Shown here piece after piece: positions 37,098 to 56,966 of a stretch of 64,000 nucleotides of DNA. Position 1 is the first letter of the stretch, and each line of letters starts with the position of its first letter. This stretch comes from an uncultured Ignavibacteria bacterium (GTDB taxonomy: Bacteria > Bacteroidota > Ignavibacteria > Tepidaquicellales > OLB5). The stretch covers positions 62,001-126,000 of the forward strand of contig CALMYL010000004.1 of NCBI GenBank assembly GCA_937873695.1, written 5' to 3'. The notes beneath the pieces were generated by a model that was given only the letters and a program-made list of their open reading frames with translations, was not told the origin of the DNA and ran no database searches. The position numbers and the translations under genes were made by a program.

Positions 37098-37184
37098 TAA
37101 TTTATTTTATATAGATTTATAATTATCCCCAATTGCATATCCGGAAAAACATAAACAAGAAATTCTGGCCGCAAATAACGTTTA

Positions 37185-37217
37185 TCGCTTGTGGGCGATA
37201 TCCCGATTAAATCGGGA
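37185..37217 (-). repeat. Duplicate of the tRNA-Val 3' end, followed by a hairpin
   Basis: TCGCTTGTGGGCGATA at 37185-37200 is identical to 37277-37292, which covers the last nine bases of tRNA-Val plus seven beyond. Next to the copy, TCCCGATTAAATCGGGA (37201-37217) forms a hairpin that could terminate the tRNA transcript, although it has no T-run. Confidence 0.65.
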
Positions 37218-37283
37218 CGAGAATGGCAGTAAATATACCTATGCTTTTACTATATTCAACCCACAATCACTATTTCTCGCTTG

Positions 37284-37357
37284 TGGGCGATACTGGATTC
37301 GAACCGGTGACCTCCACGATGTCAACGTGGCGCTCTAACCAACTGAGCTAACCGCCC
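37284..37357 (-). tRNA. tRNA-Val (anticodon GAC)
   Basis: 74 nt on the minus strand fold into a standard cloverleaf. The acceptor arms GGGCGGT and ATCGCCC pair with one G-U, the D arm reads AGCTCAGTTGGTTAGAGC, the anticodon arm CCACG-TTGACAT-CGTGG holds GAC, and the T arm contains GGTTCGAATCC. The 3' CCA is not encoded (CAA follows the discriminator A). Confidence 0.95.
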
Positions 37358-40512: not shown

Positions 40513-41979
40513 CTACTTTAACTGTTTTTTAACAATATAGGTGTTTACCAAATTGATTGTTTGCTCCCCTAAAAGAACGTAATAGAGTGCTATTACACTG
40601 ACAATTTCTATCAAAACTATGTAAATATAGCTTATTTTGAAGAATTGGGGTATGTAAATATTTATAACAAAAAGTACCATAGTTATGGTTGCAGCCTTAA
40701 AAATAGCACCCCACTCATACCCAATTCTGTAAATTCTTTGTGAAAAATAATACAGGACTATGAACATTATCATATACGAAAGCATTGTAGCAATTGCTGC
40801 TCCGACAATTGAATACCACGGTATAAGAATAAAATTCAGAGCGATATTACTTACACATCCCGCAGCAGATGAAATAATAAGGTATTTGATCTTGTTCTGA
40901 AAAAATGATGCAACATTCAGGTTCAGGTACAGCCCTGAGAACAAATAAGCAAGCAGTATGTATGGTATAATTACGAGTCCACTCCAATATTTTTCGTTAA
41001 GCAGAGTGAAGCCTGCTATATTTATCTTCACCAGGTCATCTGCCAGCAGTGAGAAGAGCAGAAATACTACGAGTCCGCCGTAGCAGAAATAAGTAAACAC
41101 TTTTGAGAATATTTCTTTGTTGCCTTCTTCACCTTTGAGGTTCATAAAAAAAGGAGTCCATGCGACCTTAAAGCCTGTAATAACCAGATTCATCACAATG
41201 CCTATCCTGTAACTGGCAGAGTAAATTCCAACCTCTGCGGAGCCTCTGAAGTACTCAAGTATGAACCTATCAATAAGATCAATTGAAATGAGAAATAAAC
41301 CGTAATACAAAAATAGATGAGCATTCTTTAATAAATGCTTTACTGTTGCAGATTGGATACTCAAAGCAAAATACTTAGCTGTGCTGAAAAATGAAATTAT
41401 GAAAAGGAACGTATATGATACAAGGTATGAATAAAATATCGCTTCAATCCCCTGCTTATAATAGACTATCAGTATTATATTAACCGCGACATTCAGCACC
41501 ACGGCAATTGAATTGAGAAATGAATACAGCTTTGAACGCTGAATACTGTTGATAAGAATCATGGGGAAGCGGTACAATGAATCAGCGAGCAGAATAAAGG
41601 CTAAGAGCCTTATGAGGTAACCGTTTGATGCGCTGCCTGTAATTTTTGCTGAAATAAAATCAGATAAAAAGTAAATAATAACACTGAAAAATACCGAGGT
41701 TAAAAAGATCAAAATCAGGGTTGAGCTGTAAATCTTCTTTTTTGTGACATCATCTCCGGCTTCAAGGAACAGCTTCTGGAAAGCTGTTTCCATTCCGTAC
41801 AGGTAAAACACTGAAACAAAGAACCAGAATGAATAAACCAGTGAGAATATGCCGTACTCAGCGGGGGGAAAGTATAGAGTATATATGGGCAGCAGCAAAA
41901 AAGGCAGTAAGCGGTTGAACACACTGCCAATTGTGTAGATTATTGCATCAGAAAATATTTTTTGTATTTGTGACGGCAA
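40513..41979 (-). CDS. Oligosaccharide/polysaccharide flippase (MOP superfamily)
   Basis: A 488-residue Wzx/MATE-like protein with about 14 membrane helices that flips lipid-linked glycan units across the inner membrane. The start SDAIIYTIGSVFNRLLPFLLLPIYT is typical of the PST family (PF01943/PF13440). The start codon is TTG at 41979. It is the last gene of the long co-directional cluster that begins at 51894, and sits 130 nt after the glycosyltransferase, with palindromes in the gap. Confidence 0.88.
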   Translation of the reverse strand: MPSQIQKIFSDAIIYTIGSVFNRLLPFLLLPIYTLYFPPAEYGIFSLVYSFWFFVSVFYLYGMETAFQKLFLEAGDDVTKKKIYSSTLILIFLTSVFFSVIIYFLSDFISAKITGSASNGYLIRLLAFILLADSLYRFPMILINSIQRSKLYSFLNSIAVVLNVAVNIILIVYYKQGIEAIFYSYLVSYTFLFIISFFSTAKYFALSIQSATVKHLLKNAHLFLYYGLFLISIDLIDRFILEYFRGSAEVGIYSASYRIGIVMNLVITGFKVAWTPFFMNLKGEEGNKEIFSKVFTYFCYGGLVVFLLFSLLADDLVKINIAGFTLLNEKYWSGLVIIPYILLAYLFSGLYLNLNVASFFQNKIKYLIISSAAGCVSNIALNFILIPWYSIVGAAIATMLSYMIMFIVLYYFSQRIYRIGYEWGAIFKAATITMVLFVINIYIPQFFKISYIYIVLIEIVSVIALYYVLLGEQTINLVNTYIVKKQLK

Positions 41980-42001
41980 ATTTGCGTTCCGATTGAATTT
42001 A

Positions 42002-42093
42002 GTTGTTGGTCAACTGAAAAACCAGTCAAGCAAGACCAACAACGGGGTAGTAAAGCATTGACCGCGACATAGCCGGGCAAGCACAGTCAATGC
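42002..42093. repeat. Two hairpin repeats, long-loop copies
   Basis: GTTGTTGGTC (42002-42011) and GACCAACAAC (42034-42043), followed by GGGG, is a variant of the hairpin at 37621-37644. Next, GCATTGAC (42055-42062) and GTCAATGC (42086-42093) match the pair at 7842-7860 with a longer loop. Confidence 0.6.
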
Positions 42094-42109
42094 AATCCAA
42101 TAAATATAT

Positions 42110-43222
42110 TTATATTATCGATGCCTTTTGATAATATTCAGTTAATTTTGCGAATACTGAGCTGTAAGAATGATACTTATCAACCCATTTCCGTGATGAT
42201 TCTCTTGCAGAATTGCGAAGTTGTTCATTATCTATAAGCTCGATTAATTTTTCGGCAAGTGTTTCTTTATTAGCCACAAAAAATGGATTCTCAGGAAGCC
42301 ATGTATCCATACCGCAGTTCATATCTGTAATAGTTGGCAGCCCCATTGATAGCGTTTCGAGTGAATTTATCCCGTAACCGGTGCCGCCCCTGTTGCCGAT
42401 CTGATCTATGGCAATATGGCAAGTTCGTTTTATCTTCATTAGTTCATCGCGCGGTGTATCTTCTATCAGCAGGAACTCAATATCACGGCTCTTTTTCACT
42501 TCTTCAACTGCTGCAATAATTTCCGGGGTACCCTTTATGATCCTTTGGGTTGGAGAGTGGATAATTTTCACTTTTTCTTTAAATCCGGTGTTATACACTT
42601 CATCGTTTATGTAGTCTAATGCTGAATTATCAAACGGAAAAAAAAGGAAATTAATATCAGGGTGCCTGAGTGTATGGTCATACTCAAAGGTCAGGTTCAG
42701 GTCGCTTATCTCATCCATATCCCTGACAATCCCTCGGGTCCTGAGATCATCGCCAAAGTAGCAGTTTACAATTTTTTTGCCCTTCATTTTCAAAGCTTTC
42801 GCAAGCTGTGAATCGCTGAAAAAATCGATGCCGCCATCAAAATGTATTATATCAAATGAATCAGCCGATATCTCGTCAAGCGCTTTGAGGAATTTTGGCT
42901 TATTCCTGTTCTCGCGGAGCTTCATGTATGCCTTTTCGGCGGAATTCTTCGGCTCAAAATACGGAAGATGCGTCCATTTATCTATGTTATCTTTTTTTAT
43001 CTTGCCCTGCAGATTTGACTGCTTGAACTCACGCCATTTCATGGCGACCTTGCTGCGAGGCAGGGGCAGATTCAGGCATACATCTTCGGGGAAATCAAAC
43101 GGAATTTTGTAAAAAGTAAGCAGCCTTGAAGGCATTCCAAACATTGCCTGCATTTTCATGACATTATACGGCACACCTGCAGTATTTTCAGGTGCGATAT
43201 GTAGTACAGAATGGTTTTTCAA
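42110..43222 (-). CDS. GT-B fold glycosyltransferase
   Basis: 370 residues. The N-terminal region starts VLHIAPENTAGVPYNVMKMQ, and the C-terminal half has the GT4-type nucleotide-sugar pocket: RDELMKIKRTCHIAIDQIG, GGTGYGINSLETLSMGLPTI, then EKLIELIDNEQLRNSARES. The E-x7-E-like motif is recognisable in the second segment. The sugar donor cannot be inferred. No membrane helix. It sits between the flippase and the asparagine synthase gene (69-nt gap) in a surface-glycan cluster. Confidence 0.8.
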   Translation of the reverse strand: MKNHSVLHIAPENTAGVPYNVMKMQAMFGMPSRLLTFYKIPFDFPEDVCLNLPLPRSKVAMKWREFKQSNLQGKIKKDNIDKWTHLPYFEPKNSAEKAYMKLRENRNKPKFLKALDEISADSFDIIHFDGGIDFFSDSQLAKALKMKGKKIVNCYFGDDLRTRGIVRDMDEISDLNLTFEYDHTLRHPDINFLFFPFDNSALDYINDEVYNTGFKEKVKIIHSPTQRIIKGTPEIIAAVEEVKKSRDIEFLLIEDTPRDELMKIKRTCHIAIDQIGNRGGTGYGINSLETLSMGLPTITDMNCGMDTWLPENPFFVANKETLAEKLIELIDNEQLRNSARESSRKWVDKYHSYSSVFAKLTEYYQKASII

Positions 43223-43291
43223 TTAATATTATTAGTTTTAAAAGTAAATATAACTAATATCACAAGGATTTAAAACGAATAAAAACAATCA

Positions 43292-45118
43292 TTAATGCAG
43301 ATCAAATACCTTCATCCATTTTTCAAGCGCGAATGCGCGATAAATCACTTTATCGTTAAAATTCCCGGACCTAATCAAACTAAGAATTTTTTCTCTATCA
43401 ATATATTTCCCGCTCCTGAAGTCATTATTGAAAGTATCTTCAAGGTACCCGGGAATCTCTGTAAGCCACTTCTTCTGGGGAACAGAAAACGCAAGCTTAC
43501 CTTTACGCATTCTGATATCTTCTGGTATCTTACCTTTAAGTGATTTACGGAGAACACTTTTGGTCCAACCTTTTTGAATTAACTTATCAAGCGGAATGGT
43601 AAAAATGAATTCAACCAGCCTGTAATCAAGGAACGGTATCCTTGCCTCAACAGAAAACGCGCCGGAATTCCTGTCCTCATATCTTAAAAGAGACGGGATT
43701 GAAATATTCCACAGGTTTGAAAGGCGGTTTGCTTCGAGTCCTGTTGCCGCTATCATTTCATTAAATACATCCCTGCGGTTATGCGATGAAACAAACTCAC
43801 GCTGCGCAAAAGCAGAGCTGTTCTTTAAAACATGCCTGTACCTTACTGAGCCTGTATTGAAATAAATCAGGTTTTGCATGAACTTATTATAACCAAGGTT
43901 GGATGTTTTCACTCCATTAACAAACTCAGAAATAAATTTGAATGGATTAAGCAAATTGCGTTTTAAATGGAACGGGAAAAATGAAAAGTATCCCAGCAGA
44001 ATTTCATCGCTTCCCTGTCCGTCAAGCACAACTTTAATTCCGGTTTCATGTATCTTCTTAAAAACGCTCCACTGCGCAAAAACGGTCGCTCCCGTATAAG
44101 GCTCATCCTGGTGATAAGTCATTCTGTCAATATCGTTCAAAAATCCATTAACATCGGGGAAAAGGTAATATTTGGTTGAATTAGTCTGCCGGATAACTTC
44201 TTCTACATATGGTCTTTCATCAATCAGCGGATCATCATAGCAGGCTGTGAAGGTTTTCTGAATTTCAGGTTTTCCTTCGTTGTGTAAAATATCATGCATA
44301 ATGCAGACTATTGCCGAGGAATCGAGTCCCCCGCTTAAGCAGCTGCCTACTTCCACATCACTTCGTAAATGTATACGAACTGAATCATACAGCAGGTCAT
44401 AAAAATCTTTGTAAAGGTTAGTTGTATCCTGCATAAATCCCGTATTTGGCAGATTATACCACCTGGAAAGCTTAAATTCATTATTTTTGATGGTGAATTT
44501 ATGCCCGGCCTGTACTTTTGTGATGTTCTTGTAAAAAGTATTTTCAGTGTGGTCAATAAAATTGAATACAAGGTAATCGTATATTGTGGAATCATTCACT
44601 GACTTATCAATGCCGAAGCTTAGTATCTGCTTTATTTCAGAGCCGAAGATAAGCTTAGTATCATCTTTGTAGAAGTATAATGGTTTTATGCCGAATCTAT
44701 CCCTGGCGCAAAAAAGGGTTTTTTCCTGTTTATCCCAAATAGCGAAAGCCCACATACCATTTAGTTTGTGCAGGCAATCTTCGCCCCATTCTTTATATGC
44801 ATTTATTATGACTTCAGTATCGGAATCAGTGTGGAACCTGTATCCTTTTTTCTTCAGTTCATTGCCAACTTCTATGTAATTATAAATTTCACCGTTAAAC
44901 ACTATGACATAACGGTTATCGGTATCATATAGAGGCATGTTTGATATTTCGCGCAGATCGATAATCGCAAGGCGTGTTGAGCCAATGCCGACATTGCCTT
45001 CAACATAAACACCATTTCCGTCCGGTCCGCGGTGAAGGATAATCCTGTTCATTTCGCTTACCTGGGCTCTATCAACAGGCGCGCCGTTAAAATTGAATAT
45101 ACCGGATATTCCGCACAT
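43292..45118 (-). CDS. asnB: Asparagine synthase (glutamine-hydrolysing) family
   Basis: 608 residues. The N-terminal class II glutaminase has the nucleophile Cys2 in MCGISGIFNF, then HRGPDGNG and FNGEIYNY. The C-terminal synthetase domain has the ATP pyrophosphatase loop SCLSGGLDSSAIV and QGSDEILLGY. The family makes asparagine, but members inside surface-glycan clusters can amidate uronic acids or other sugar carboxylates. Its ATG overlaps the stop of the upstream gene (TAATG), so they are coupled. Both readings are possible here; context favours sugar amidation only weakly. Confidence 0.9.
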   Translation of the reverse strand: MCGISGIFNFNGAPVDRAQVSEMNRIILHRGPDGNGVYVEGNVGIGSTRLAIIDLREISNMPLYDTDNRYVIVFNGEIYNYIEVGNELKKKGYRFHTDSDTEVIINAYKEWGEDCLHKLNGMWAFAIWDKQEKTLFCARDRFGIKPLYFYKDDTKLIFGSEIKQILSFGIDKSVNDSTIYDYLVFNFIDHTENTFYKNITKVQAGHKFTIKNNEFKLSRWYNLPNTGFMQDTTNLYKDFYDLLYDSVRIHLRSDVEVGSCLSGGLDSSAIVCIMHDILHNEGKPEIQKTFTACYDDPLIDERPYVEEVIRQTNSTKYYLFPDVNGFLNDIDRMTYHQDEPYTGATVFAQWSVFKKIHETGIKVVLDGQGSDEILLGYFSFFPFHLKRNLLNPFKFISEFVNGVKTSNLGYNKFMQNLIYFNTGSVRYRHVLKNSSAFAQREFVSSHNRRDVFNEMIAATGLEANRLSNLWNISIPSLLRYEDRNSGAFSVEARIPFLDYRLVEFIFTIPLDKLIQKGWTKSVLRKSLKGKIPEDIRMRKGKLAFSVPQKKWLTEIPGYLEDTFNNDFRSGKYIDREKILSLIRSGNFNDKVIYRAFALEKWMKVFDLH

Positions 45119-46077
45119 TATGCCTTAACCTGCCCTTTGGTATCTTTTACATGTTGGGGAATTATAGTATACAACGCAAGCGGAATGAGTATTGTAAATA
45201 TAGTTAATGCCTTATCAATTTCTCGCAAGCGCGCTATGAAGAAGAACGCTCCGAAGTAAAATAACGGGAGCACTATTACTGCGCTGTTCTTCAGGAATTC
45301 AGGTTTACTTTTGAATCCTTTGAAAACGAAATAAATAAACGGAGCTATCATTAAGAACCAGAGCAGCATCCAGTCCTTATGCGCGATATTAAACGCAGCA
45401 TCCTTGGTAAAGTACCAGTTCACTTCGCTTCCGCCGGCGGAGCCGCCGCGCAATAAATATATCAAACCATACGCGGCAAGAAAGGTTATTGTTAATAAAA
45501 CGCTGTTTATCCAAACTGTATTATCTTTTAGGTTTGATAAATTTGAAAAGAAATAGAATGCGATGAGCAATATCAGTTGCAGCTCATTAAATGCCGCAAT
45601 AAATATCAGTGGATATAATAATTTTATCTTTGAAGTATTGATGAAGTAAAATCCTAATGCCATAATGCCCGCAGTTGTCATATCGCCAAGTACATCATAC
45701 CCTGTGAGCGAGAGCGGTACAAGTACCGCAAACAGCAGTAATGCAATTACTGCCCCTGTATCATCAAACCACAGCTTAAAAAATTTCATCAGGCATAACA
45801 ACATGAATGCGAAAATGATAATGTTCTGAAGTGTGTATGCTGCAATGAAAGCGGGTTTATCGGGAATAACTGTATTCAATGCTGAGATCCAAATCTGTGT
45901 AATGTATGGATTGAGCAGCCTGTACTTGTAAGGATATTCAATTGTATTATTAATTATCGTTGTATGGCGGGTAAGTTTAAGTTCATAGTTAGGGGCATCT
46001 GTTCTGACTGTTTGGAAATACCCGAGAATTAAAGCGGTAAAAAAAACTATGAACCAGATCTTTTTATTATCTATCAC
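45118..46077 (-). CDS. Polytopic membrane protein in the glycan cluster
   Basis: 319 residues with about nine hydrophobic helices. The short loop TVRTDAPNYELKLTRHTTI after helix 1, followed by YPYKYRLLNPYITQIW, resembles the first extracytoplasmic loop of EpsG/GT-C-type glycan membrane proteins, but I cannot assign a family with confidence. The gene overlaps asnB by one base (TAATG) and follows the GNAT-like gene by 16 nt. It may be a polymerase or a lipid-dependent glycosyltransferase for the surface polymer. Confidence 0.6.
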   Translation of the reverse strand: MIDNKKIWFIVFFTALILGYFQTVRTDAPNYELKLTRHTTIINNTIEYPYKYRLLNPYITQIWISALNTVIPDKPAFIAAYTLQNIIIFAFMLLCLMKFFKLWFDDTGAVIALLLFAVLVPLSLTGYDVLGDMTTAGIMALGFYFINTSKIKLLYPLIFIAAFNELQLILLIAFYFFSNLSNLKDNTVWINSVLLTITFLAAYGLIYLLRGGSAGGSEVNWYFTKDAAFNIAHKDWMLLWFLMIAPFIYFVFKGFKSKPEFLKNSAVIVLPLFYFGAFFFIARLREIDKALTIFTILIPLALYTIIPQHVKDTKGQVKA

Positions 46078-46093
46078 TTTAATTAATTACCGG

Positions 46094-47062
46094 TTAATAT
46101 TTCAGATCTAAAAAATATGAATCTCTCAATATTCCCCTTGCGCCAAATGACTCTTTGAACTTACCGAGTCCCCAGTTTGGATCCATATTCACTGTGAATA
46201 ACCCGAAATCCAGGAACTCAAGTCCGCGGCTGATAGCATCCTTCATTATGGTATAAAACAACAGATTCACCGCGCGGTACTGCTGGTACTCCTGGTTATG
46301 GCTGATGTAAAACACAAGCACGACTTTATCATTGCAGTAAAAATTTATAACTCCGGCTATCATTTTATTTTTCAGGTATGCCCCGAACAATTGAATCTTG
46401 TGCGGAAAAAGTTCTTTTAGCAGATACAATTCTTCCAAAGTATGCGCAGGCTGCACATTATGGCGCATTGCAAGATTGCTTTGTAATATATCGTAATACT
46501 CATCAAAATCATTAGACTTCTTAATCACTACGCCCATCTTCTCAGCTTTACGCACTGATGTGCGGGATTCAGGCTTAATGAGCTTCATCACGTTATCTTC
46601 ATCAACATCAAGCGTAATAACGCTTGTAACTTCACGTTTAAGATAGTTGAAACCGTTCTTAACAAATGCGAAATCAAGATACTGGTTATAACGTTTTTGA
46701 TAAACTACAGGCACACTTGTTACAACAATTTTTTCAAATTTTTCGCTCAGTGAATAGTCAATTAAGCTCTGAGTAAGATCAAATGACTGCTTGATGCTCA
46801 GGCTTTCATTATGCACAAATCCGCCATAGCTTGCGCCCATGTGTGACCATAGTGTTCTCGTGCCATCGCGCTTTATATCAGCCGCAGGCAGAACCGCGAT
46901 GAGTTTTTTATCCTCAAAAAAAAGCAGCGAGTTATCTTTGAATTTATCAGGTGAGTGATAAGAAAGGAATTTGCGTGTATGGAATATTGTACCGTTGGAA
47001 GAACCTGCTACCAATTCTTCCCATTTATCAAGATATTTTTTTTCGTAATGAACTACTTCCAC
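46094..47062 (-). CDS. FemAB/GNAT-like acyltransferase
   Basis: 322 residues. FHTRKFLSYH near the start and the C-terminal core (FGAYLKNKMIAGVINFYCND, FLDFGLFTVNMDPNWGLGKFKE) fit the double-GNAT-fold FemAB/Acetyltransf_6 group that transfers amino-acyl or acyl groups to sugars or peptidoglycan. Such genes often sit in exopolysaccharide and exosortase clusters. No signal peptide or helix. It lies 16 nt before the membrane protein gene and 41 nt after a PorV-like gene. Confidence 0.75.
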   Translation of the reverse strand: MEVVHYEKKYLDKWEELVAGSSNGTIFHTRKFLSYHSPDKFKDNSLLFFEDKKLIAVLPAADIKRDGTRTLWSHMGASYGGFVHNESLSIKQSFDLTQSLIDYSLSEKFEKIVVTSVPVVYQKRYNQYLDFAFVKNGFNYLKREVTSVITLDVDEDNVMKLIKPESRTSVRKAEKMGVVIKKSNDFDEYYDILQSNLAMRHNVQPAHTLEELYLLKELFPHKIQLFGAYLKNKMIAGVINFYCNDKVVLVFYISHNQEYQQYRAVNLLFYTIMKDAISRGLEFLDFGLFTVNMDPNWGLGKFKESFGARGILRDSYFLDLKY

Positions 47063-47103
47063 TCAAAAGCTCCCGTTAATATACATTGCTTAAAATGCAG
47101 GAA

Positions 47104-48009
47104 TCAGAAATTAGTGCCTAATGTTATTGTATGACTTGAGCCAAGTGAATATTTGTAGGGTACGAAAGCGTAATCAAGCGCGAATGCTTTATATTTTAAG
47201 CCAATTCCGGCGGCAATTGATTTATTTTCATAGCCTGACTGGTATCCAACTCTTAATGCAAGAAAATCTTTGTAAAGCAGCTCAGCGCCCGTGTTAGCAT
47301 GGAATTTACCGCCATCCATAACCTTGTAGCCATCGGCTGCTATTATGAGCCTGGAGCTTATACCTGCAAGATCAACATAATACGAACCGCCGAACCTTAT
47401 TGCAGAAGGAAGCTTCGTAGCTTCACTTCTGAGATCGCTCATGGAACCGAGATTTGTGATTGATGCGCCAACTGTCAGTTTATCTTTGATGTACAGCCCG
47501 CCAAGATCAAGCGCAACGCCGGAGGCGTTATCAACATAAATCTTTTCAAAAAGGAATTTACCTGTCAAGCCCACGGAAAGATTTTCGTTAACCTTGTAGC
47601 CCATAGATATACCGAGAGCAAAATTCTGTGCTGTAAATTCACCAAGTGATTCACCGGGAATTTCGCGAACCTGAATTTTATCGACAGAAGTATTGTTCAG
47701 ACTGAAACCTAGCGCAAGCTTGTTGAATTTTACTTTTCCTGCCAGAAACTCAGTGCGGACACCAAGAACCTGCTCATTATGCATAAACACCATATTTACT
47801 TTTGAGCCGTTGAAAAGCGCAGCAGGATTGTAGTGTGTTGCAGATGCATCAAATGTATTGCCAACAACAGCTTCGCCCATAGCAATAGAGCGCGATGTAA
47901 TGCCAAGCTTCAAGAATGCCAGCCCGGTATTCCCCGCCCCGTCATTTTGTGACTTTGATACGGAAACAATTGCTACAAGGATGATTATATACTTAATTAG
48001 TGATCTCAA
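47104..48009 (-). CDS. PorV/PorQ-family outer membrane protein (first copy)
   Basis: 301 residues, signal peptide ending near SKSQ. The opening GLAFLKLGITSRSIAMGEAVVG and THYNPAAL are hallmarks of the PorV/PorQ family (UPF0164), followed by alternating strands of a beta barrel ending in SHTITLGTNF. PorV shuttles T9SS cargo from the translocon to the attachment complex; PorQ-like members work with the sortase. Clustered with a second member, two lipoproteins and a T9SS cargo upstream, and glycan genes downstream. Confidence 0.85.
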   Translation of the reverse strand: MRSLIKYIIILVAIVSVSKSQNDGAGNTGLAFLKLGITSRSIAMGEAVVGNTFDASATHYNPAALFNGSKVNMVFMHNEQVLGVRTEFLAGKVKFNKLALGFSLNNTSVDKIQVREIPGESLGEFTAQNFALGISMGYKVNENLSVGLTGKFLFEKIYVDNASGVALDLGGLYIKDKLTVGASITNLGSMSDLRSEATKLPSAIRFGGSYYVDLAGISSRLIIAADGYKVMDGGKFHANTGAELLYKDFLALRVGYQSGYENKSIAAGIGLKYKAFALDYAFVPYKYSLGSSHTITLGTNF

Positions 48010-48047
48010 AAATTTATTCCGTGTTTAAAATTTAACAAAAATAAGCA

Positions 48048-49022
48048 TTATTTAAACTTAATAACAGCCGAAATCGTCTGAAACGGATTGTGAGTAAACG
48101 GCTCAAGCACAAATGAATAATCAATTCCTACTATATAACTATTGAATGCCTTTTGATAACCAATTCCCGCAGAAGGTCTTGAGCCTCCGAACTTGTCTTC
48201 TGCACTCAGGTCAAGCCTGTCGAGTCCCGCGCGGAACTTGACATCTTTAACCGGATTTATCTCAGCGCCAATCCTTATGATATTGGACTTTTTATTGCTC
48301 GTTTCATAATCAAGCGCAACTAAACCAAAGTTATTTGGCAGCAAATATGAAACACCCAGAGTATACAACTTAGGGAATTTCTCCTTTGTCTGGTTGCCGT
48401 TCTGGCCATACAGGTCAATGGTGTTCCATTCATACTGCGAATTAATATCTTTAATTGTAACACCAACATTTATTTTATCGTTCACTCTGTACAACCCGCC
48501 GATATCAAACCCGAATGAAGTTGCAGATACGCCTTCATATAGTTTTGAGTAATAAAGTTTAAATCCAACTCCAAGCGAGATATTATCTGAGACTCTTATT
48601 GAAGGAGCGAAAAGGAATTGGTTATCACTGGTTGACAGCTCGCCAATTGAAAAGCCATCAATATCCCTGCCGTCAATTTTACCAACACCGGAATTTATCC
48701 ATGAAAAAGTAATACCCGCTCCGCCTTCGGTCTGTTTGGGAAGCTTGAAGTTTTTAGTATAGCTAACAAAGTTCAGGCTTCTATCCAGCGAAAGGAAAGA
48801 ATAACTGGCATTGATCAAATGCTCATTCTGGAACGAAGACAGCGCGGGGTTGTACAGACCGTTCAGATCACCTGAGGTAATTGAGGTCATTGCATTACCC
48901 ATAGCATTACCTCGCGCGTTGAATCCCATGCGCGTGAACGCACCGGGCAGGCCGCCAAGCTGCGAAAATGATTGCGCTGTAAGGGCTGCCAGTAATAATA
49001 TTATTTTAAGATATATCTTCAT
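48048..49022 (-). CDS. PorV/PorQ-family outer membrane protein (second copy)
   Basis: 324 residues with a signal peptide (ALTAQSFSQ). GAFTRMGFNARGNAMGNAMTSI and GLYNPALSSF match the family start, and strands follow to the end PFQTISAVIKFK. It shares motifs with the neighbouring 301-residue protein (KLGITSRSIAMG and YNPAAL there) and is probably an old duplication. It is 3 nt after a small lipoprotein gene. Confidence 0.82.
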   Translation of the reverse strand: MKIYLKIILLLAALTAQSFSQLGGLPGAFTRMGFNARGNAMGNAMTSITSGDLNGLYNPALSSFQNEHLINASYSFLSLDRSLNFVSYTKNFKLPKQTEGGAGITFSWINSGVGKIDGRDIDGFSIGELSTSDNQFLFAPSIRVSDNISLGVGFKLYYSKLYEGVSATSFGFDIGGLYRVNDKINVGVTIKDINSQYEWNTIDLYGQNGNQTKEKFPKLYTLGVSYLLPNNFGLVALDYETSNKKSNIIRIGAEINPVKDVKFRAGLDRLDLSAEDKFGGSRPSAGIGYQKAFNSYIVGIDYSFVLEPFTHNPFQTISAVIKFK

Positions 49023-49025
49023 GGA

Positions 49026-49418
49026 TTATTTTTTTACTATAACTAATTCGTTTTCTGATAATTGTGATTTAAGCTTTTCTGAATATGACATTTCAAGTTC
49101 GAACTTCTTTCCGTCAATTTCAAATCCCATAGGGGCAATATCACCCATACCGGAAGACCAGCTTATTTGTTTCTTTGATGAAGATGAAGTTATGTCAAAC
49201 TCGCGGAATTTCATTTTTATATTAGTCCCGTTCGGTAAATGCTTGGTTTCTGTCCTATCGCCGGTATATGTAAGAACAAAATCAGGGAATATAAGCTGCT
49301 CATCTTTTGAGAATTTAATTACAGTATCATAATCATTCATACCGGCTTGATTTGAACAATTCAGAGTAAACAACGAAATGAAGATTAATATTAACAATTT
49401 CAAATTAATTCTATTCAT
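49026..49418 (-). CDS. Small lipoprotein in the PorV cluster
   Basis: 130 residues with a lipobox (LFTLNC, Cys about 21). The mature part is beta-rich with no recognised domain (FPDFVLTYTGDRTETKHLPNG, FEIDGKKFELEMSYSEKLKS). Gaps of 6 and 3 nt to its neighbours imply it is co-translated with the T9SS cargo and the PorV-like protein. A role in cargo delivery is possible but not shown. Confidence 0.7.
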   Translation of the reverse strand: MNRINLKLLILIFISLFTLNCSNQAGMNDYDTVIKFSKDEQLIFPDFVLTYTGDRTETKHLPNGTNIKMKFREFDITSSSSKKQISWSSGMGDIAPMGFEIDGKKFELEMSYSEKLKSQLSENELVIVKK

Positions 49419-49424
49419 ACAATT

Positions 49425-51074
49425 TTACTGTAATACCAATATCTTGCCCCACACAGTTTCATCTTTATCTATCTGTATGCGGTAAAAATAAACTCCGTTT
49501 GAGACCTGTGTGCCGTCATCACGTTTGCCGTCCCATGTTGCCCATATCACATCAGGGGATGTACGAGAAGCATTCTGTATCACTGTCCTTATCGGGAACA
49601 TCGCGAAATCAAATATCTTAATAGTGATATTTGAAGAGGTCTTCCCTGTTTTATAATATATCCTGCATACTTCATCATCCGGTGAAAACGGGTTTGGCGC
49701 GGCGTATGATTCGTTTGTGGCCGTGATGTTCTGGTATGCCCTGAAAATTTTCCATTTACCTACCCAGGGACTCGTCAGTGTATCAGTAGTGCGCGCAAGT
49801 CCGTCACCGGAGCCTACCCATACTGAATCGCCCTGAGAATCAACTGCATAGAATAGATTTGTTCTTATCTGGTCGCGTATTTCCTCATCGTAAATGATAG
49901 AAGGTCTTGACCAGCTAAAGCCGGGCGGCGTGAAATAACTGCGCCATATTCCGTCATCAGTTGCGCCGTATACAATAGAATCCTTAAAGCCGACATTATG
50001 AGTGAAAGCTACATCAAGCGTATTGCTCCATGAAGCACCAAAATTGGAGGAAAAACTGAACGCTGAAAACTCGCCCCCTTTTGTTGGGTTTGATGATGCC
50101 CATACAATAACATTATTGCCGTACTTTTGTACATCAAGTCCAACAACAAAATCACCCGATACTCCGCTGCCTGTACCTGTGCTATCAAAATTGTATTTCT
50201 TCCAGCTCATTCCCCAGTCACTTGACCTGTTTATACCGTTAGCGGTACCTACATATATAGTGGAATCATTTTCTGTGGTAACCGAAAATCCTTTATGGTT
50301 ATTATTGCCAAGCGGCGGGTCGCGGGGATTAAGCTCAAAATTATATGGACCCCCTGTTGGTGTAATTGTATTAAATGCATCCGGAGGAAGTACAACGCGC
50401 TGCCATGTAGCGCCAAAATCAGTTGATTTACGTGTACCGCCTGCCCATGATGTTATCCAGAACACCAGTGAATCAGACGAACTGTTTTTCTTTGAAATTG
50501 CGATATCGTATGAAAGATTGAATTCATCCACTACAACTGGTAAAGCAGTGATAGTACTTATTCCGTATTGTATTGTTGAATCATTCACTCCATCAATCGG
50601 CTGGGGGTATGATGCCCATGTTGCGCCGTAGTCACTTGAGACCTTTATACCTGTTCCGGTCGGGACATATTCTTCATTTATCAATTGCGAATACGCGGTA
50701 GCCACAACTACCCAATTTTTATACACTGCAAGACCCGAAACATCATCTTCACCAAATGGTTCGGTTCCGTAAAAATTCTGGAATGACAAGCCGCGGTTAG
50801 TTGTGCGGGATATACCTTTGCCGGTTCCGAACCAGATAGTATCACCGCCATCATTGCTTACCACAATAATATCAGAAATGAAATTTGAAATTATTGTCTG
50901 TGAGGATACCGGCGAGGATGAAAACCTGCCTATAAGGTTATTGCCCTTATTTTGTTTTACATCAGACTTGAATTTTTTATAAACGTCATTTGATATCTTA
51001 AAATCTTTAGGCAGCATTTGCGCAAAGCCGATATTAAATGATGCCAGTATCAGTATTAAAAGGAGTTTTTTCAT
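49425..51074 (-). CDS. Secreted beta-propeller-like protein with T9SS sorting domain
   Basis: From the ATG at 51074 (MKKLLLILILASFNIGFAQ) the product is 549 residues; an earlier in-frame ATG at 51095 would overlap the preceding gene and displace the signal peptide. The body has BNR/sortilin-like units (TTNRGLSFQNFYG, SSDYGATWASYPQ, STDFGATWQRVV, SSDWGMSWKKYN). The C-terminus is a FlgD-like, type A sorting domain: YAAPNPFSPDDE, then VSNGVYFYRIQIDKDE. It should be exported through the T9SS and displayed on the surface. It lies in the same run as two PorV-like genes. Confidence 0.85.
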   Translation of the reverse strand: MKKLLLILILASFNIGFAQMLPKDFKISNDVYKKFKSDVKQNKGNNLIGRFSSSPVSSQTIISNFISDIIVVSNDGGDTIWFGTGKGISRTTNRGLSFQNFYGTEPFGEDDVSGLAVYKNWVVVATAYSQLINEEYVPTGTGIKVSSDYGATWASYPQPIDGVNDSTIQYGISTITALPVVVDEFNLSYDIAISKKNSSSDSLVFWITSWAGGTRKSTDFGATWQRVVLPPDAFNTITPTGGPYNFELNPRDPPLGNNNHKGFSVTTENDSTIYVGTANGINRSSDWGMSWKKYNFDSTGTGSGVSGDFVVGLDVQKYGNNVIVWASSNPTKGGEFSAFSFSSNFGASWSNTLDVAFTHNVGFKDSIVYGATDDGIWRSYFTPPGFSWSRPSIIYDEEIRDQIRTNLFYAVDSQGDSVWVGSGDGLARTTDTLTSPWVGKWKIFRAYQNITATNESYAAPNPFSPDDEVCRIYYKTGKTSSNITIKIFDFAMFPIRTVIQNASRTSPDVIWATWDGKRDDGTQVSNGVYFYRIQIDKDETVWGKILVLQ

Positions 51075-51084
51075 TTTCAGAATT

Positions 51085-51894
51085 TTAATAAACATAAATA
51101 GAATCGCTTAATATATTACTTGTATCACCAGAACGGTCAACAGCACGGATATAATACCTGTAATAACCCGTTTCATTAGGCGCCCCGAAAGTCTGTCTGG
51201 TGAATTTACTGTCATTTGCCACGGTATCACCGCTTGTAACGCCGGTTGTACCTATCTGGCAGCAGCTGCCGTCATCAAACAACTCAAGAGAAGAAGTCAA
51301 AGGAACGCCGCTTGGTCTGAAACCCGTGTAAAAAACTTTTGCAATATCACAGGGACCATTGGGATCAACCGAGGTTATCATAAATGTAAAAAATGATGGT
51401 GTATTAACCTGTATGCTGTCCGGTGAGATCACTATTCCGGTAGCTACCGGAGGCTGATTAGGAGATCTGATGACATTAACATCATTTTGCACAGGATTAC
51501 TTGTCAGGCCTGATACATTTGTTGCAAGGAATTCAATTTTATGAAATCCAACCTGCCGGCATGAAAAAACATAATTCAATAAGCCTGTATATTTGCCGTC
51601 ACCTGCCGTGGTATCAGGATAAACACCGTTATCAAGCAGATTCACTGAAGCAAGTATATTGTTGCCAAGGTCGTAGAACTTAACTTCTACTTTTTCAACA
51701 GGGTCTTCAGATTCAACAGTTGCACCAGCAATTATTCCGATGGTATCGGAATTAAACACCTGTGGAGTATAATAATTACTTGTTATAGAAGGAAAATGAA
51801 GTATAGGGTCTATTACGCTGCTATCTTCCTTCTCGCAGGAATACATAAATATTCCGAGAATGACCGGGATTAAAAAATATTTTATTTTGCGCAA
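51085..51894 (-). CDS. Lipoprotein with Ig/cadherin-like domains
   Basis: 269 residues from a TTG start, with a lipobox (FMYSC, Cys about 19). Two beta domains follow: VESEDPVEKVEVKFYDLG and FSCRQVGFHKIEFLATN in the first, PPVATGIVISPDSIQV and YYRYYIRAVDRSG in the second. The DNGVYPDTTAGDGKYTG and DDGSCCQIG loops are Asp-rich, as in calcium-binding Ig-like folds. The gene begins the long co-directional run and ends 10 nt before the T9SS cargo. Confidence 0.7.
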   Translation of the reverse strand: MRKIKYFLIPVILGIFMYSCEKEDSSVIDPILHFPSITSNYYTPQVFNSDTIGIIAGATVESEDPVEKVEVKFYDLGNNILASVNLLDNGVYPDTTAGDGKYTGLLNYVFSCRQVGFHKIEFLATNVSGLTSNPVQNDVNVIRSPNQPPVATGIVISPDSIQVNTPSFFTFMITSVDPNGPCDIAKVFYTGFRPSGVPLTSSLELFDDGSCCQIGTTGVTSGDTVANDSKFTRQTFGAPNETGYYRYYIRAVDRSGDTSNILSDSIYVY

Positions 51895-52115: not shown

Positions 52116-54038
52116 TCATACCAAATTCATTTTCTTCTTCAATTCCAGGTACCTTGGATCATTATGGGGCACATTGAATGCGGGATGCTCAATAATAATA
52201 GCCGCAGGACCTATTTTTTTTCCCACGCATTGGAATAAGTGATAAAACCCCTTATCCAGCTCACCCAAAGAAAGCCAGACCATGGCAAGATCAGCATCGA
52301 CAACAATTCCCGGCTCCGATGCCTGCCACTCCTCTATTTTTGCGATGCACTCCATTGCTTTGTTTGCATCCCCTGATTTTGCATAAGCGCAGCCAATGGG
52401 CGCGAATCCTTTTAACGGGTGATCTATAGAAAGGCGAACTTCTTCAAAAATTTCTGCAGATTTCTTCCAGTCGCCTTTTGCGCCAATGCACCAGCCTTTC
52501 AGTTCCTTAGCCGCGCGCATTTGCGGATACATTTCAAGCAGCATTTCAGCCTGCTTTAAGGCATCATCTACCCTGCCTGATATGAGGTAAGCATCCACAA
52601 GTGATTTATTAACTATCGGCGAGAGCGGGTCAGTTTCAAGCGCTTTTTCCATTATAGCTACTGCTTCGCTGTTTTTCCCGGTAATGAGATAATAGAACGA
52701 AAGTAATTGGTGAGCATCGGTTGCTGCAGGGTTAAGTTTTATAGCTTTCTTTAATGAATCATATGCTTCATTCCATTTCCAGTCATACAGTAAATACGCT
52801 GAGCCTTTTGCGGCATAACCCGCAGAAAGTGTGTTATCAAGCTGCAACGCTTTATCGGCATATTTGTGAACGAACCCAAAAGCCTCCCCGGGGTGCACTT
52901 GCCCTGTAGAACCAAGAAAAGCATACGCTTCGGCTGCCATGGCGTACGCGAGAGCATAACCAGGTTCAAGCGATATTGCTTCTTCAAAGAGCGATATTGC
53001 CCTTTTAAAATCATTTGGAGTTACCTTATTATAGAAATGCAGTCCTTTTAAAAACAGGGTGTACGCTTCAAGGTTTTGTACGGGCGCATTAACGAGTTTC
53101 TTATCGTGTTCTTTTGCGGTCAGATTTTCGCGGCATTTATTGACTATAATTCCGCTTATCTCATCCTGCACTTTGAAAATATCGTTTAAGTCACGGTCAA
53201 AATTTTCGCTCCAGATATGATAACCATCGGCAGCATTAATAAGCTGCGCGGTGATGCGTACGCGGTTACCTGATTTGCGAACGCTTCCTTCAAGGATTCT
53301 GTTGACATTAAGTTGTATACCAATTTCACGTATATCTGTGTTCTTTCCTTTAAACGCAAAGGCTGATGTTCTTGAAGTTACCTCGAGACCTTCTACTTTT
53401 GAAAAAACATTCAGCAGCTCCTCTGAAATTCCGTCACTGAAATATTCATTTTCAGGGTCAGCGCTCATATTTACAAACGGCAGAACAGCAAGCCGGTTGA
53501 CCGGCTGTTTGGTCTTTCCCTTAAGTTCATTTCTCGCGGGGACTACAAGACCGTCACTTTCAACAACGAACACACGCATTGGTTCAACAACATTCTTGAA
53601 TTCAAAATAACCCATTTCCCTGGCTGAAAGGTTTTGCTGGTTTTTTATTTCATCGTACACTTTTTCTGAAATCAGGATAGAACCCGGAACGGCAAGTGAT
53701 TCTATCCTTGAGGCGATATTAACGCCATCACCGTAAATGGTTTCATCTTCCATTGAAATATCACCCGAGTGCAGACCAATTCTCAGGTCAACTTTCGGTT
53801 CAATAAGCAGTGTTTGCTGAATTTCTATAGCACACTTAACACCATCAATAGCGCTGCTGAAAATGCTTAATGCGCCATCGCCGTAGTACTGCAATACCTC
53901 ACCGTTGTAAACAGCGGTCGTACTTTCAAGAACTTCTTTCAGTCTGCGCCGTTTTTCTTTTGCCAGCTGTTCATTCTGCTGCATAAGCGCAGTATACCCG
54001 GACATATCAGAAAACATTATTGCAGCTAATTTACGCAT
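52116..54038 (-). CDS. Class III nucleotide cyclase with TolB-like and TPR regions
   Basis: 640 residues. The N-terminal cyclase homology domain (1-160) has metal-binding Asp11 (FSDMSGYT) and Asp54 (YYGDGALSIF) and the transition-state pair Asn107/Arg111 (GDGVNIASR). The base-selecting Lys of adenylate cyclases is Gln50 here. The middle part (about 180-300) is a TolB-like N-terminal domain (LAVLPFVNMS, YHIWSENFDRDLNDIFKVQD). At least five TPR repeats fill 330-600. It makes cAMP or cGMP, or is a degenerate sensor. No helix, so probably cytosolic. No response regulator gene is adjacent. Confidence 0.85.
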   Translation of the reverse strand: MRKLAAIMFSDMSGYTALMQQNEQLAKEKRRRLKEVLESTTAVYNGEVLQYYGDGALSIFSSAIDGVKCAIEIQQTLLIEPKVDLRIGLHSGDISMEDETIYGDGVNIASRIESLAVPGSILISEKVYDEIKNQQNLSAREMGYFEFKNVVEPMRVFVVESDGLVVPARNELKGKTKQPVNRLAVLPFVNMSADPENEYFSDGISEELLNVFSKVEGLEVTSRTSAFAFKGKNTDIREIGIQLNVNRILEGSVRKSGNRVRITAQLINAADGYHIWSENFDRDLNDIFKVQDEISGIIVNKCRENLTAKEHDKKLVNAPVQNLEAYTLFLKGLHFYNKVTPNDFKRAISLFEEAISLEPGYALAYAMAAEAYAFLGSTGQVHPGEAFGFVHKYADKALQLDNTLSAGYAAKGSAYLLYDWKWNEAYDSLKKAIKLNPAATDAHQLLSFYYLITGKNSEAVAIMEKALETDPLSPIVNKSLVDAYLISGRVDDALKQAEMLLEMYPQMRAAKELKGWCIGAKGDWKKSAEIFEEVRLSIDHPLKGFAPIGCAYAKSGDANKAMECIAKIEEWQASEPGIVVDADLAMVWLSLGELDKGFYHLFQCVGKKIGPAAIIIEHPAFNVPHNDPRYLELKKKMNLV

Positions 54039-54224: not shown

Positions 54225-56966
54225 CTAACGAACCAACAGCAATTTTCTTGTCTGCCTGTACTCTCCAGCCTGTATTGTGTAGAAATATATTCCGCTTGCA
54301 AGATTGCTTGCATCAAACCTGACTGAATGATTTCCTTTTTTCCTGAATTCATTAACAAGTCCGGCAACTTCCTTACCAAGGATATCATATATCTTAATCT
54401 TTACATAAGTATCATTTGGCAATGAAAAGCTTATGTTTGTAACAGGATTAAACGGATTTGGATACGCATTTGTTGAGAAGAATTTAACCTGTTCTGTTTC
54501 CTCCTGTCCTTTTCTACGCGGGGCTGTATTGAGCTCAAAATTTTCGCCGCCGGTAATGAATTCCCGGTCTGTTCCAAGCTGAGTATACTGCTCCACCTGA
54601 AGTGTGAACCTGTCAGCACCTCTTGGAGGCTGTTCAAAAAGATCAAATTCAAATTTTATCGTGGCCATTTCTTCGGGATCCATTTTCATATCAGAAATAT
54701 ACGCATCCAGTTTAACTATTTCGATTTTTGTTCCCTCGGCCGGTTCTATTCCTTCGCCTCTTGTACCGCCATCCCTCCAGTGCGCATATAGTTTTTCACC
54801 CAGGTCAACATATATTCTTCCGTATCTCTGGAACGGGTTATCTATCTGTTTTTTGGGTGTCAAGAAACGCAGTTTTACCAATGCAACTTCGCGTTCTACA
54901 TTACGAACAGTAACCCAGCCCGCCGCAAGCGGTCCGTTTGGCCCTGAGAAGTCATCAACAACAGTGATGTTTTTCCAAACAATATTATTATTGTTTTTAA
55001 CATTCGTGTAAATACCGGCCCCTTCAGGGAAAGTCATTCCATACGGAGCAACAGGTGAGGTTTCAATTCTTGCCAGCAGGCAAAAATGCGAGCTATCAGA
55101 ACCAAATCCGGAAAAGTCAGAAGGGTTCGGGGGGAACCACGGAATTTCAAAAATGACTGAATCACCGGGAGCAAGATTTGATATTATTGGCATACTCGTA
55201 TGAATGATATTCCCGTGAAGAGTAGGGCCGATATAATAATTGATCCATTGAGTCGGCCAGCTTAAACCTGTTGAAGCCTTGGCCCAGTATGTTTTTAATT
55301 GTCCGCTGGCATAACAGCCGCCGCGGTTACGAACCATAACGTATATGTAGTTTGGATTGTACGGATAGAGTATCGAATCTCTGTACTCCGGATTCTGGTG
55401 CTGGTGCGGATTAGCGAAACCATCCTGCTGAGTTCTTACCCAAATATCCTGGCTTACCCACATGGGGCCGTTATCAGGATTTGGCTCCGTTCCGTCATCA
55501 AGCCATGTATCTTTTGACCAGAGATCGGGTCCGACATCAATTTTTGCTGTCCATACCTGGTATATTCCTGAAAAATTATCTGCCCAAAATGGCCATACTT
55601 TCGTGCCAAGAGAAGTTACCCCGATATAGTCACCCTGGTAACCCCCTGCAAGTCCTGCGATTGGCGCAGGAGTAAAACTATGGTCACTGGCTTTTATATC
55701 TGTCCAAGAAGTTCCGCCGTTAACCGAACGGGACAAATAGACTTCAGCCTGTGTGCTTGTAACGTTTCGCTGATCATAATAAACCACGTTAACTCCCCCG
55801 CATTCATCAACTCTAACGGCAGGCATATAGTTCAGTTTGCCTGAAGCATCCTGGTTCACTCTTGTCCTTGTCCATGTAGCGCCGTTATCTGTTGAGCGCA
55901 TTAATATCACATCAGAATTATCAAGTGCTGGTGTAAAATTCTTTTCAGCGGCAACAACATAAAGCCACCCGTTACGGGGTCCGCCGGTTTTATCAATATC
56001 AAGCCTGGGAAAACCATTACATCTTATTCCGTTTACCAGATTACTTGTTCTGATGCCATTCATATCTGCAACATGGTTGCTTGAAAACGCCCATGTTACT
56101 CCGCCATCGGTTGACCTGGCATATCCAAGGCTGTCTTCGGTTGAATTTTGCCCGTTTGTTGTACAGTTTGCCCACACAACATGCACAACTCCTCCGGGAC
56201 CTACTCTTACATCGCAGCCCTGGTGATGGTGACCTGCTGAAGTGGGGGGACTAACCGGTGCTGCCGTGCTCCAGGTTACTCCGCCATCAGTAGTGTAAGA
56301 TATCACTATCCTGTACGTATATGTTCCTGAAAAATTTGTCCATACAGTATATGCTCTGCCGAAATACGCGCTGCCGGTTACATCATCCACAGCAGAAAGA
56401 TTTTTATCAAAACCGCTGGCACCCGGAAAATTAACCTGCCCTGTCCACGAAGACCCGTTTGTATTGGAATAAGCCGCGCCTTGAATTACAGAGTGACCAA
56501 ACCTTCCGGCCCAAGTACTTCCCACCGGCCATATCCAGTTTGCGGGGTCACCGCTGTTGGGAGTAAATGTCTGGTGGCTTCCCGCCCATGTAACCCCGCC
56601 ATCAATCGAAGCGGTATATCCCGTACCATAGAACGAAGGGCCGAAAGAATTCCATGCGGCGAAAATAATATTACTGCTGCCGGCCTGAGTTGTAACATCA
56701 ACTTCACTTTGGGTGGCAGTATGCGGAAACGGCCTGAAACTTGGACCGATCACATAGTTACCCTGCGCGGTGCTGATGTGTCTATCCGAAGTATTCGGAT
56801 TCACAAAATACAATGATTGCGGCAGTGGCACAAAATCTCCTGTAACCCTAACCTGAGTCGAAGGGTCATAAGACCACCTGATGTCTTCATTTTGAGCAAA
56901 AACAAAAACGCAGTTGCACATAATGATAACACCTGTTAAAATTGTTAATTTTATCCTTCTCATCAT
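54225..56966 (-). CDS. Large secreted sialidase/BNR-type protein with T9SS sorting domain
   Basis: 913 residues with a signal peptide ending near FVFAQ. The N-terminal ~500 residues carry repeated Asp-box-like units (SIDGGVTWAGSH, TTDGGVTWSTAA, STDGGVTWAFSS, STDNGATWTRT, SVNGGTSWTD) as in sialidase-like six-bladed propellers. A beta-rich region follows, and the end is a type A sorting domain (YPNPFNPVTNISFSLP, YDILGKEVAGLV, RKLLLVR). The substrate is unknown. GGAGG lies 4 nt before the ATG at 56966 and 7 nt before a second ATG at 56963, so the latter may be the true start. Confidence 0.88.
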   Translation of the reverse strand: MMRRIKLTILTGVIIMCNCVFVFAQNEDIRWSYDPSTQVRVTGDFVPLPQSLYFVNPNTSDRHISTAQGNYVIGPSFRPFPHTATQSEVDVTTQAGSSNIIFAAWNSFGPSFYGTGYTASIDGGVTWAGSHQTFTPNSGDPANWIWPVGSTWAGRFGHSVIQGAAYSNTNGSSWTGQVNFPGASGFDKNLSAVDDVTGSAYFGRAYTVWTNFSGTYTYRIVISYTTDGGVTWSTAAPVSPPTSAGHHHQGCDVRVGPGGVVHVVWANCTTNGQNSTEDSLGYARSTDGGVTWAFSSNHVADMNGIRTSNLVNGIRCNGFPRLDIDKTGGPRNGWLYVVAAEKNFTPALDNSDVILMRSTDNGATWTRTRVNQDASGKLNYMPAVRVDECGGVNVVYYDQRNVTSTQAEVYLSRSVNGGTSWTDIKASDHSFTPAPIAGLAGGYQGDYIGVTSLGTKVWPFWADNFSGIYQVWTAKIDVGPDLWSKDTWLDDGTEPNPDNGPMWVSQDIWVRTQQDGFANPHQHQNPEYRDSILYPYNPNYIYVMVRNRGGCYASGQLKTYWAKASTGLSWPTQWINYYIGPTLHGNIIHTSMPIISNLAPGDSVIFEIPWFPPNPSDFSGFGSDSSHFCLLARIETSPVAPYGMTFPEGAGIYTNVKNNNNIVWKNITVVDDFSGPNGPLAAGWVTVRNVEREVALVKLRFLTPKKQIDNPFQRYGRIYVDLGEKLYAHWRDGGTRGEGIEPAEGTKIEIVKLDAYISDMKMDPEEMATIKFEFDLFEQPPRGADRFTLQVEQYTQLGTDREFITGGENFELNTAPRRKGQEETEQVKFFSTNAYPNPFNPVTNISFSLPNDTYVKIKIYDILGKEVAGLVNEFRKKGNHSVRFDASNLASGIYFYTIQAGEYRQTRKLLLVR

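Follow-up and report, generated by a model that had tools for sequence, protein, structure and literature searches.

A gene run in Ignavibacteria joining a candidate type IX secretion attachment module to putative sugar-modifying enzymes

The ten-gene run and its two modules

The window analyzed in this study, a stretch of 64,000 nucleotides (nt) from contig CALMYL010000004.1 of an uncultured Ignavibacteria bacterium (assembly GCA_937873695.1), contains ten minus-strand open reading frames that run in one direction from 51894 to 40513, and which we label A to J in their order of transcription (Table 1). The run is composed of two modules: the first comprises A, B, D and E, whose relationships lie with the type IX secretion system (T9SS), and the second comprises F, I and the flippase J, supplemented in the window's genus by the AsnB-like H. 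An earlier examination of the letters alone (hereafter the sequence-only reading) had described this co-directional run as having spacers mostly of 70 nt or less, and had proposed that its glycan genes build an anchor onto which the PorV-like proteins load a dedicated cargo, namely the product of B. The run itself is real and its compact layout stands: the gaps are 10 nt for A-B (reckoned from the conserved ATG of B at 51074), 6 for B-C, 3 for C-D, 38 for D-E, 41 for E-F and 16 for F-G, followed by a 1-nt overlap of G and H and a gap of 69 nt for H-I, with the sole longer interval being the 130 nt ahead of J. In a scan of the sequence, both promoter-like sites (50 found vs. 47.9 expected) and terminator-like sites (12 found vs. 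11.6 expected) occur at chance level; therefore, a single transcript is neither demonstrated nor ruled out.

Table 1. Genes of the run in order of transcription, with positions in the window
Gene	Predicted product	Position	Strand	Remarks
A	Lipoprotein, 269 aa (amino acids)	51085..51894	-	Opens the A-B-D-E module
B	Secreted beta-propeller protein with PorU/PorZ-type C-terminal domain, 549 aa; PorZ-like candidate	49425..51074	-	
C	Small lipoprotein, 130 aa	49026..49418	-	Window family only
D	PorQ-like outer-membrane barrel	48048..49022	-	PorQ model 59.1 bits, PorV model 24.7 bits
E	PorV/PorQ-family outer-membrane protein	47104..48009	-	NF033709 157.5 bits (cut-off 90)
F	FemAB/GNAT-fold aminoacyl or acyl transferase; VimA-like candidate	46094..47062	-	Acetyltransf_6/FemAB; TIGR03019 81 bits (curated cut-off 260)
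G	Membrane protein with 8 hydrophobic stretches, weakly EpsG-like	45118..46077	-	
H	AsnB-like glutamine amidotransferase; WbpS-like candidate	43292..45118	-	Asn_synthase/GATase_7; TIGR01536 444 bits (over cut-off)
I	Glycosyltransferase (GT4-like), partner of F	42110..43222	-	
J	Wzx/MATE-type polysaccharide flippase	40513..41979	-	Polysacc_synt PF01943 3.6e-16; 12 hydrophobic stretches

Conservation of order and linkage

We compared the run across 197 genomes of the class and 395 genomes of the phylum, and surveyed with tblastn 40 loci found via F (L001-L040). The nearest named relatives of F, which are 97-98% identical, come from Ignavibacteria metagenome-assembled genomes. The close relatives of the window present the order A-B-(C)-D-E-F-(G-H)-I-J; other Ignavibacteria present A-B-D-E-F-I-J without C, G and H, with F at 53-57% identity and the other genes mostly at 25-50%. 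The gene order, which the sequence-only reading had put forward as a check, is kept down to approximately 35-57% protein identity and, therefore, the ten-gene run is not a product of chance. Of the variable members, C was detected in 7 of the ten nearest loci (L001-L010) but not in the 30 others (L011-L040), and G, among the fetched loci, is seen only in the window's family. In the loci from Calditrichota, KSB1 and Kapabacteria, F often retains I, and the survey detected none of A to E in its vicinity. The lipoprotein A, with an invariant Cys20 in a 17-row alignment, adjoins B in most class loci. Directly upstream of A in many loci (L096-L155), both in and outside the class, there is an M50-type membrane peptidase, which is absent from that position in the window.

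At the level of the class, F is present in 120/197 genomes, B in 142/197 and D in 140/197. B and D co-occur in 140 of these; in 137 they are neighbors on the same strand, and in the remaining three they lie on different contigs. Among the 75 class genomes with B, D and F, the last lies on the same strand at most 5 kb from D in 62, a count that scores as unlinked two genomes (G049 and G193) with FemAB fragments on their B/D contigs. Some loci stop soon past F (e.g., L015), such that an unlinked state there might reflect a contig end. Within the window's own family, 10 of 11 genomes show the same proximity; the exception is G132, in which F begins at base 683 of its contig and D was recovered only in part, on a different contig. 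The link postulated between glycan and PorV-like genes is supported: it is conserved, at a frequency well over background.

Protein B as a candidate PorZ equivalent

B starts with a signal peptide and ends in a T9SS-like C-terminal domain (CTD); its C-terminus weakly matches CHU_C/FlgD_ig. Its AlphaFold2 model, built from an 18-row alignment (predicted local distance difference test score 80), shows a propeller with an Ig-like domain behind it. A Foldseek search with this model recovered PorZ (5m11) at the first rank with an E-value of 1.7e-13, yet with a template-modeling (TM) score of 0.39 and a root-mean-square deviation of 18. PorZ 5m11 was not reached at an E-value of 1 by sequence profile A1 of B; the broader profile A7 recovered 4a2l (BT4663) at 4.5e-18, the CTD of PorU at 3.7e-6 and PorZ at only 0.0023. 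BT4663 is itself described as similar to PorZ (PMC8545088).

In Porphyromonas gingivalis, PorU and PorZ keep their CTDs uncleaved, and these are reported to be longer and to have an extra hairpin (PMC11285876). At least 90 residues separate a PNPF motif from the end of the protein in 60/71 B proteins, as against 2/25 other proteins with the motif, and 58/71 have a WDG hairpin, again as against 2/25, the 71 rows being orthologs and not independent. Thus, most B proteins display a long CTD with a probable additional hairpin, as in PorZ and PorU; the PorU of the window's own genome carries the same WDG hairpin, and, on the basis of sequence, the WDG segment probably corresponds to the extra hairpin of the uncleaved PorZ and PorU. 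B was not listed against the ordinary type A T9SS sorting domain (TIGR04183) at an E-value of 0.01, and four B orthologs from outside the class score 22-39 bits against the PorZ model NF052228, solely via their C-termini.

The barrels D and E and other T9SS components

D favors the PorQ over the PorV model; the search with its structural model recovered the FadL family, with PorV (6h3i_F) at rank 4 having TM scores of 0.66/0.62, the highest among the first four rows. E passes the cut-off of the PorV/PorQ family model. The best PorU-PorV pair of the genome is encoded elsewhere, on contig C30; hence, E is an additional member of the family. The genome codes for PorU (922 bits) and SprA (916 bits), and PorU is present in 187/197 class genomes. 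As separate observations, the above PorU-PorV pair (G000:C30:40671-45149, L091) is flanked by GT2/GT9 glycosyltransferase (GT) homologs seen beside B-D-E in relatives, and a second PorU-like protein (G000:C8:378044-382813, L093; 281.7 bits, 1622 aa) has a WDG-type CTD of its own.

The putative sugar enzymes

The closest solved relatives of F are aminoacyl-tRNA-dependent peptide synthases (9wqw, E-value 7.4e-10). We also considered action on peptidoglycan, which we set aside as improbable given a weak FemX match (E-value 0.19-0.3) and the absence of murein genes from the run. Of the Porphyromonas enzymes, VimA is reported to attach serine or glycine to the linking sugar and also matches TIGR03019 (Veith et al. 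2020, PMC7468200); the same source assigns WbpS as an AsnB-type amidotransferase and VimE as a CE4-type deacetylase, and VimF has been assigned as a likely transferase (PMC13086638). The run in the window contains candidate enzymes of the VimA, WbpS and VimF kinds, to which other class families contribute one of the VimE kind. As to the proposal that the glycan genes build the anchor, F and I fit the modification and transfer of a sugar.

Variable glycan neighborhoods around a constant core

Across the class, different glycan sets surround the same core. One group of families presents the order GT2-NodB deacetylase-GT2-radical SAM-DUF1207-M50 peptidase-A-B-D-E-F-I-flippase-GT4-GT9. In a second group, M50-A-B-D-E is followed, at times after an additional protein (of the PMT_2 type in L096), by a different FemAB and a GT4. 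For the sister family f2, as judged from Pfam matches at one locus (L128), A-B-D-E is followed by PMT_2, FemAB, an epimerase/dehydratase, a formyltransferase, an amidohydrolase, I and a flippase. Upstream of the run in other class families lie the NodB deacetylase (the VimE kind), GT2 and GT9. Even at B/D loci of the class lacking F, glycan-gene homologs are nearby in 14/14 sampled (of 65, hand-picked over families), as against 1/20 control windows at arbitrary coordinates in class genomes.

In a FemAB tree of 110 proteins, a quick version leaving out rows under 300 aa, the FemABs occupying the slot after E fall on deeply separate branches. Placing the 'linked' label on this tree takes 10 changes, of which well-supported branches force at least five. 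The scatter of linked FemABs could reflect either repeated recruitment to this slot or an old link that was lost several times. In the sampled loci that we labeled flavobacteria-like, FemAB relatives are found beside sugar aminotransferases and a flippase. Acylation of amino sugars may thus be a general FemAB role, whereas the T9SS link is not general.

Proposed function and alternatives

Taking these features together, we propose, with a probability of about one in two, that the run is a T9SS attachment module coupled to the synthesis of its linking sugar, the best reading being one in which the coupling is analogous to that of PorZ, PorQ and PorV with the Wbp/Vim pathway of Porphyromonas. 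Briefly, the following mechanism appears plausible. F would add an aminoacyl (or acyl) group to an amino sugar and H may convert a uronic acid to its amide. I would then load the sugar, thus modified, onto a lipid carrier, and J would flip the lipid-linked sugar, which, with the help of the general machinery, might become part of a surface glycan. B would exit via the T9SS with its CTD kept, and D might hold it on the surface in the manner that PorQ is reported to keep PorZ there (PMC5562754). As PorZ is reported to bind anionic lipopolysaccharide (PMC8545088), B might offer the glycan to PorU, the sortase, whose gene lies outside the run; the PorV-like E would meanwhile bring the cargo proteins, whose C-termini would be joined to the sugar. 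What we observed are the family and fold assignments, the conserved gene order, the recurrence of FemAB next to E and the presence of PorU and SprA; the biochemical steps, the placement of the proteins at the surface and the coupling are inferred from these.

Several observations weigh against this proposal. With respect to B, the top VIA-align rows are GH74 enzymes and generic propellers, and PorZ 5m11 is absent among the 50 rows listed; the model suggests one propeller, as opposed to the two seven-bladed propellers of PorZ; and the window's protein is not listed against NF052228 (cut-off 260 bits) at an E-value of 0.01, placing it outside the curated PorZ family. Likewise, D at 80.6 bits is below the cut-off of 90 of the PorV_fam model NF033709. 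H at 371 bits falls well short of the cut-off of 816.9 of TIGR03108 (WbpS/eps_aminotran_1) and is nearer plain asparagine synthase. No near copy of the NodB deacetylase seen in the clusters of other families was detected in the window's genome, whose one PF01522 protein lies far from the run. The sequence-only reading had regarded unlinked modules in close relatives as a finding that would undo it, and this has come about in part: while the link persists in the window's family, B and D occur without F in 65 class genomes, and F without B and D in 45; therefore, the two modules can live apart. In phylum members elsewhere, FemAB relatives are in O-antigen-type loci with no visible T9SS link. Finally, only 2/20 B loci from outside the class (hand-picked from about 100) have glycan genes nearby, although the reference set, drawn from the class and its neighbors near this locus, detects such genes less well there. 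Hence, the glycan link is a feature of the class and not universal to B-D-E.

The most serious alternative is that the two modules are unrelated neighbors: an O-antigen or exopolysaccharide locus beside a T9SS module, kept together by inheritance. Glycan loci are common, the modules are apart in many genomes and their link is rare outside the class. On the other hand, different FemAB branches occupy the same slot, different glycan sets surround the same core in different families, and the F-less loci differ starkly from the control windows in their glycan genes. We accordingly regard mere neighborhood as unlikely, though it retains some weight.

We give still less credence to the version of the sequence-only reading in which D and E form a shuttle private to B, a dedicated cargo whose anchor is made by the glycan genes. 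B does have a signal peptide and a T9SS-like CTD and adjoins two PorV-family genes, and cargo-shuttle gene pairs are reported for SprF-type systems (PMC12618676). However, B is present in the above 142 class genomes, nearly always in single copy and nearly always with D, and homologs of it occur in 175/395 genomes of the phylum. In contrast, a true cargo from the same window, a 913-aa protein with a sorting-type C-terminus (54225-56966), has matches at an E-value of 1e-30 in 67/197 genomes but a full-length homolog in only 3/197, the other matches listed being to shared N-terminal parts. This spread, the single copy, the D partner and the PorU/PorZ-type CTD fit a part of the machine, and we reject the dedicated cargo; B is probably a machine component of the PorZ kind. 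Least probable is that the role of B, D and E lies with the glycan itself, in its export or assembly via FadL-like barrels, which would accommodate the constant glycan-gene neighborhood in the class and the FadL-fold group of D and E, but not their closest families being PorV/PorQ, the T9SS-type CTD of B, or the retention of B-D-E where nearby glycan genes were not detected.

The attachment-module proposal can be extended, more tentatively, to the evolution of these systems. Outside the class, the order B-D-E is met again, and B is found in several families inside and outside it. A-B-D-E might then be an old and widespread T9SS attachment complex outside Bacteroidia, with B as its PorZ equivalent, beside which lineages plugged in different sugar-acylating pathways, such that the linking sugar varied while the machine remained constant; we consider this possible but rather doubtful.

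Other features of the window

The 130-nt gap between I and J (41980-42113, minus strand) can fold into a stable three-way junction (z -4.2, equaled in 0/200 shuffles); it has no Rfam match and its length varies among relatives. A tRNA-Ser gene comes after J, and the gene upstream of the run (52116-54038), judged by eye, resembles an adenylate cyclase with repeats. Elsewhere, a 22-nt near-perfect palindrome resembling repetitive extragenic palindromic elements occurs at six sites (8576, 17424, 17556, 26725, 26850 and 27025; 0 expected), and there is a partial duplication at a tRNA-Val gene (37162-37292) with a 39-nt repeat at 74%.

Significance

To our knowledge, a few oral Bacteroidia are the only organisms in which the anchoring of T9SS cargo has been worked out in detail. 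Even in Prevotella intermedia the synthesis of the linking sugar is stated to be unknown (PMC11969387). The present locus yields a short gene list for the anchor outside Bacteroidia and its delivery, with likely sugar-modifying enzymes, a likely sugar-presenting protein and its barrel partner, and is a good place to study surface-protein anchoring in Ignavibacteria. B is a candidate PorZ equivalent for lineages where our literature search found none reported. That search, covering titles and the beginnings of abstracts, found no description of such a cluster, which is not proof of absence.

Comparison with known systems

Of the systems with comparable enzymes, the XrtA/PEP-CTERM exopolysaccharide loci (TIGR03019, TIGR03108) likewise combine a FemAB, an amidotransferase, a GT and a deacetylase. 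However, F and H score far under the curated cut-offs of those families, and PorV-type proteins take the place of the exosortase, none being found among the annotated genes of the run, to which this observation is confined, the genome itself not having been searched for one. The Wbp/Vim pathway (VimA, VimE, VimF, WbpS) shares with the run a FemAB-type transferase, an AsnB-type amidotransferase and a GT, with the NodB deacetylase as a further likeness, but in other class families. Unlike that pathway, the cluster in the window is without Wbp genes or VimE, the rest of the Wbp pathway not having been searched for genome-wide. The T9SS attachment complex of P. gingivalis, PorU-PorV-PorQ-PorZ, finds its parallel in a propeller protein with a retained-type CTD beside a PorQ-like barrel, with a PorV-family protein in the same run and PorU in the genome. 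It differs in that B has one predicted propeller instead of two and lies below the PorZ family cut-off, and in that here PorU is encoded outside the cluster and the attachment genes are joined to those of a glycan.

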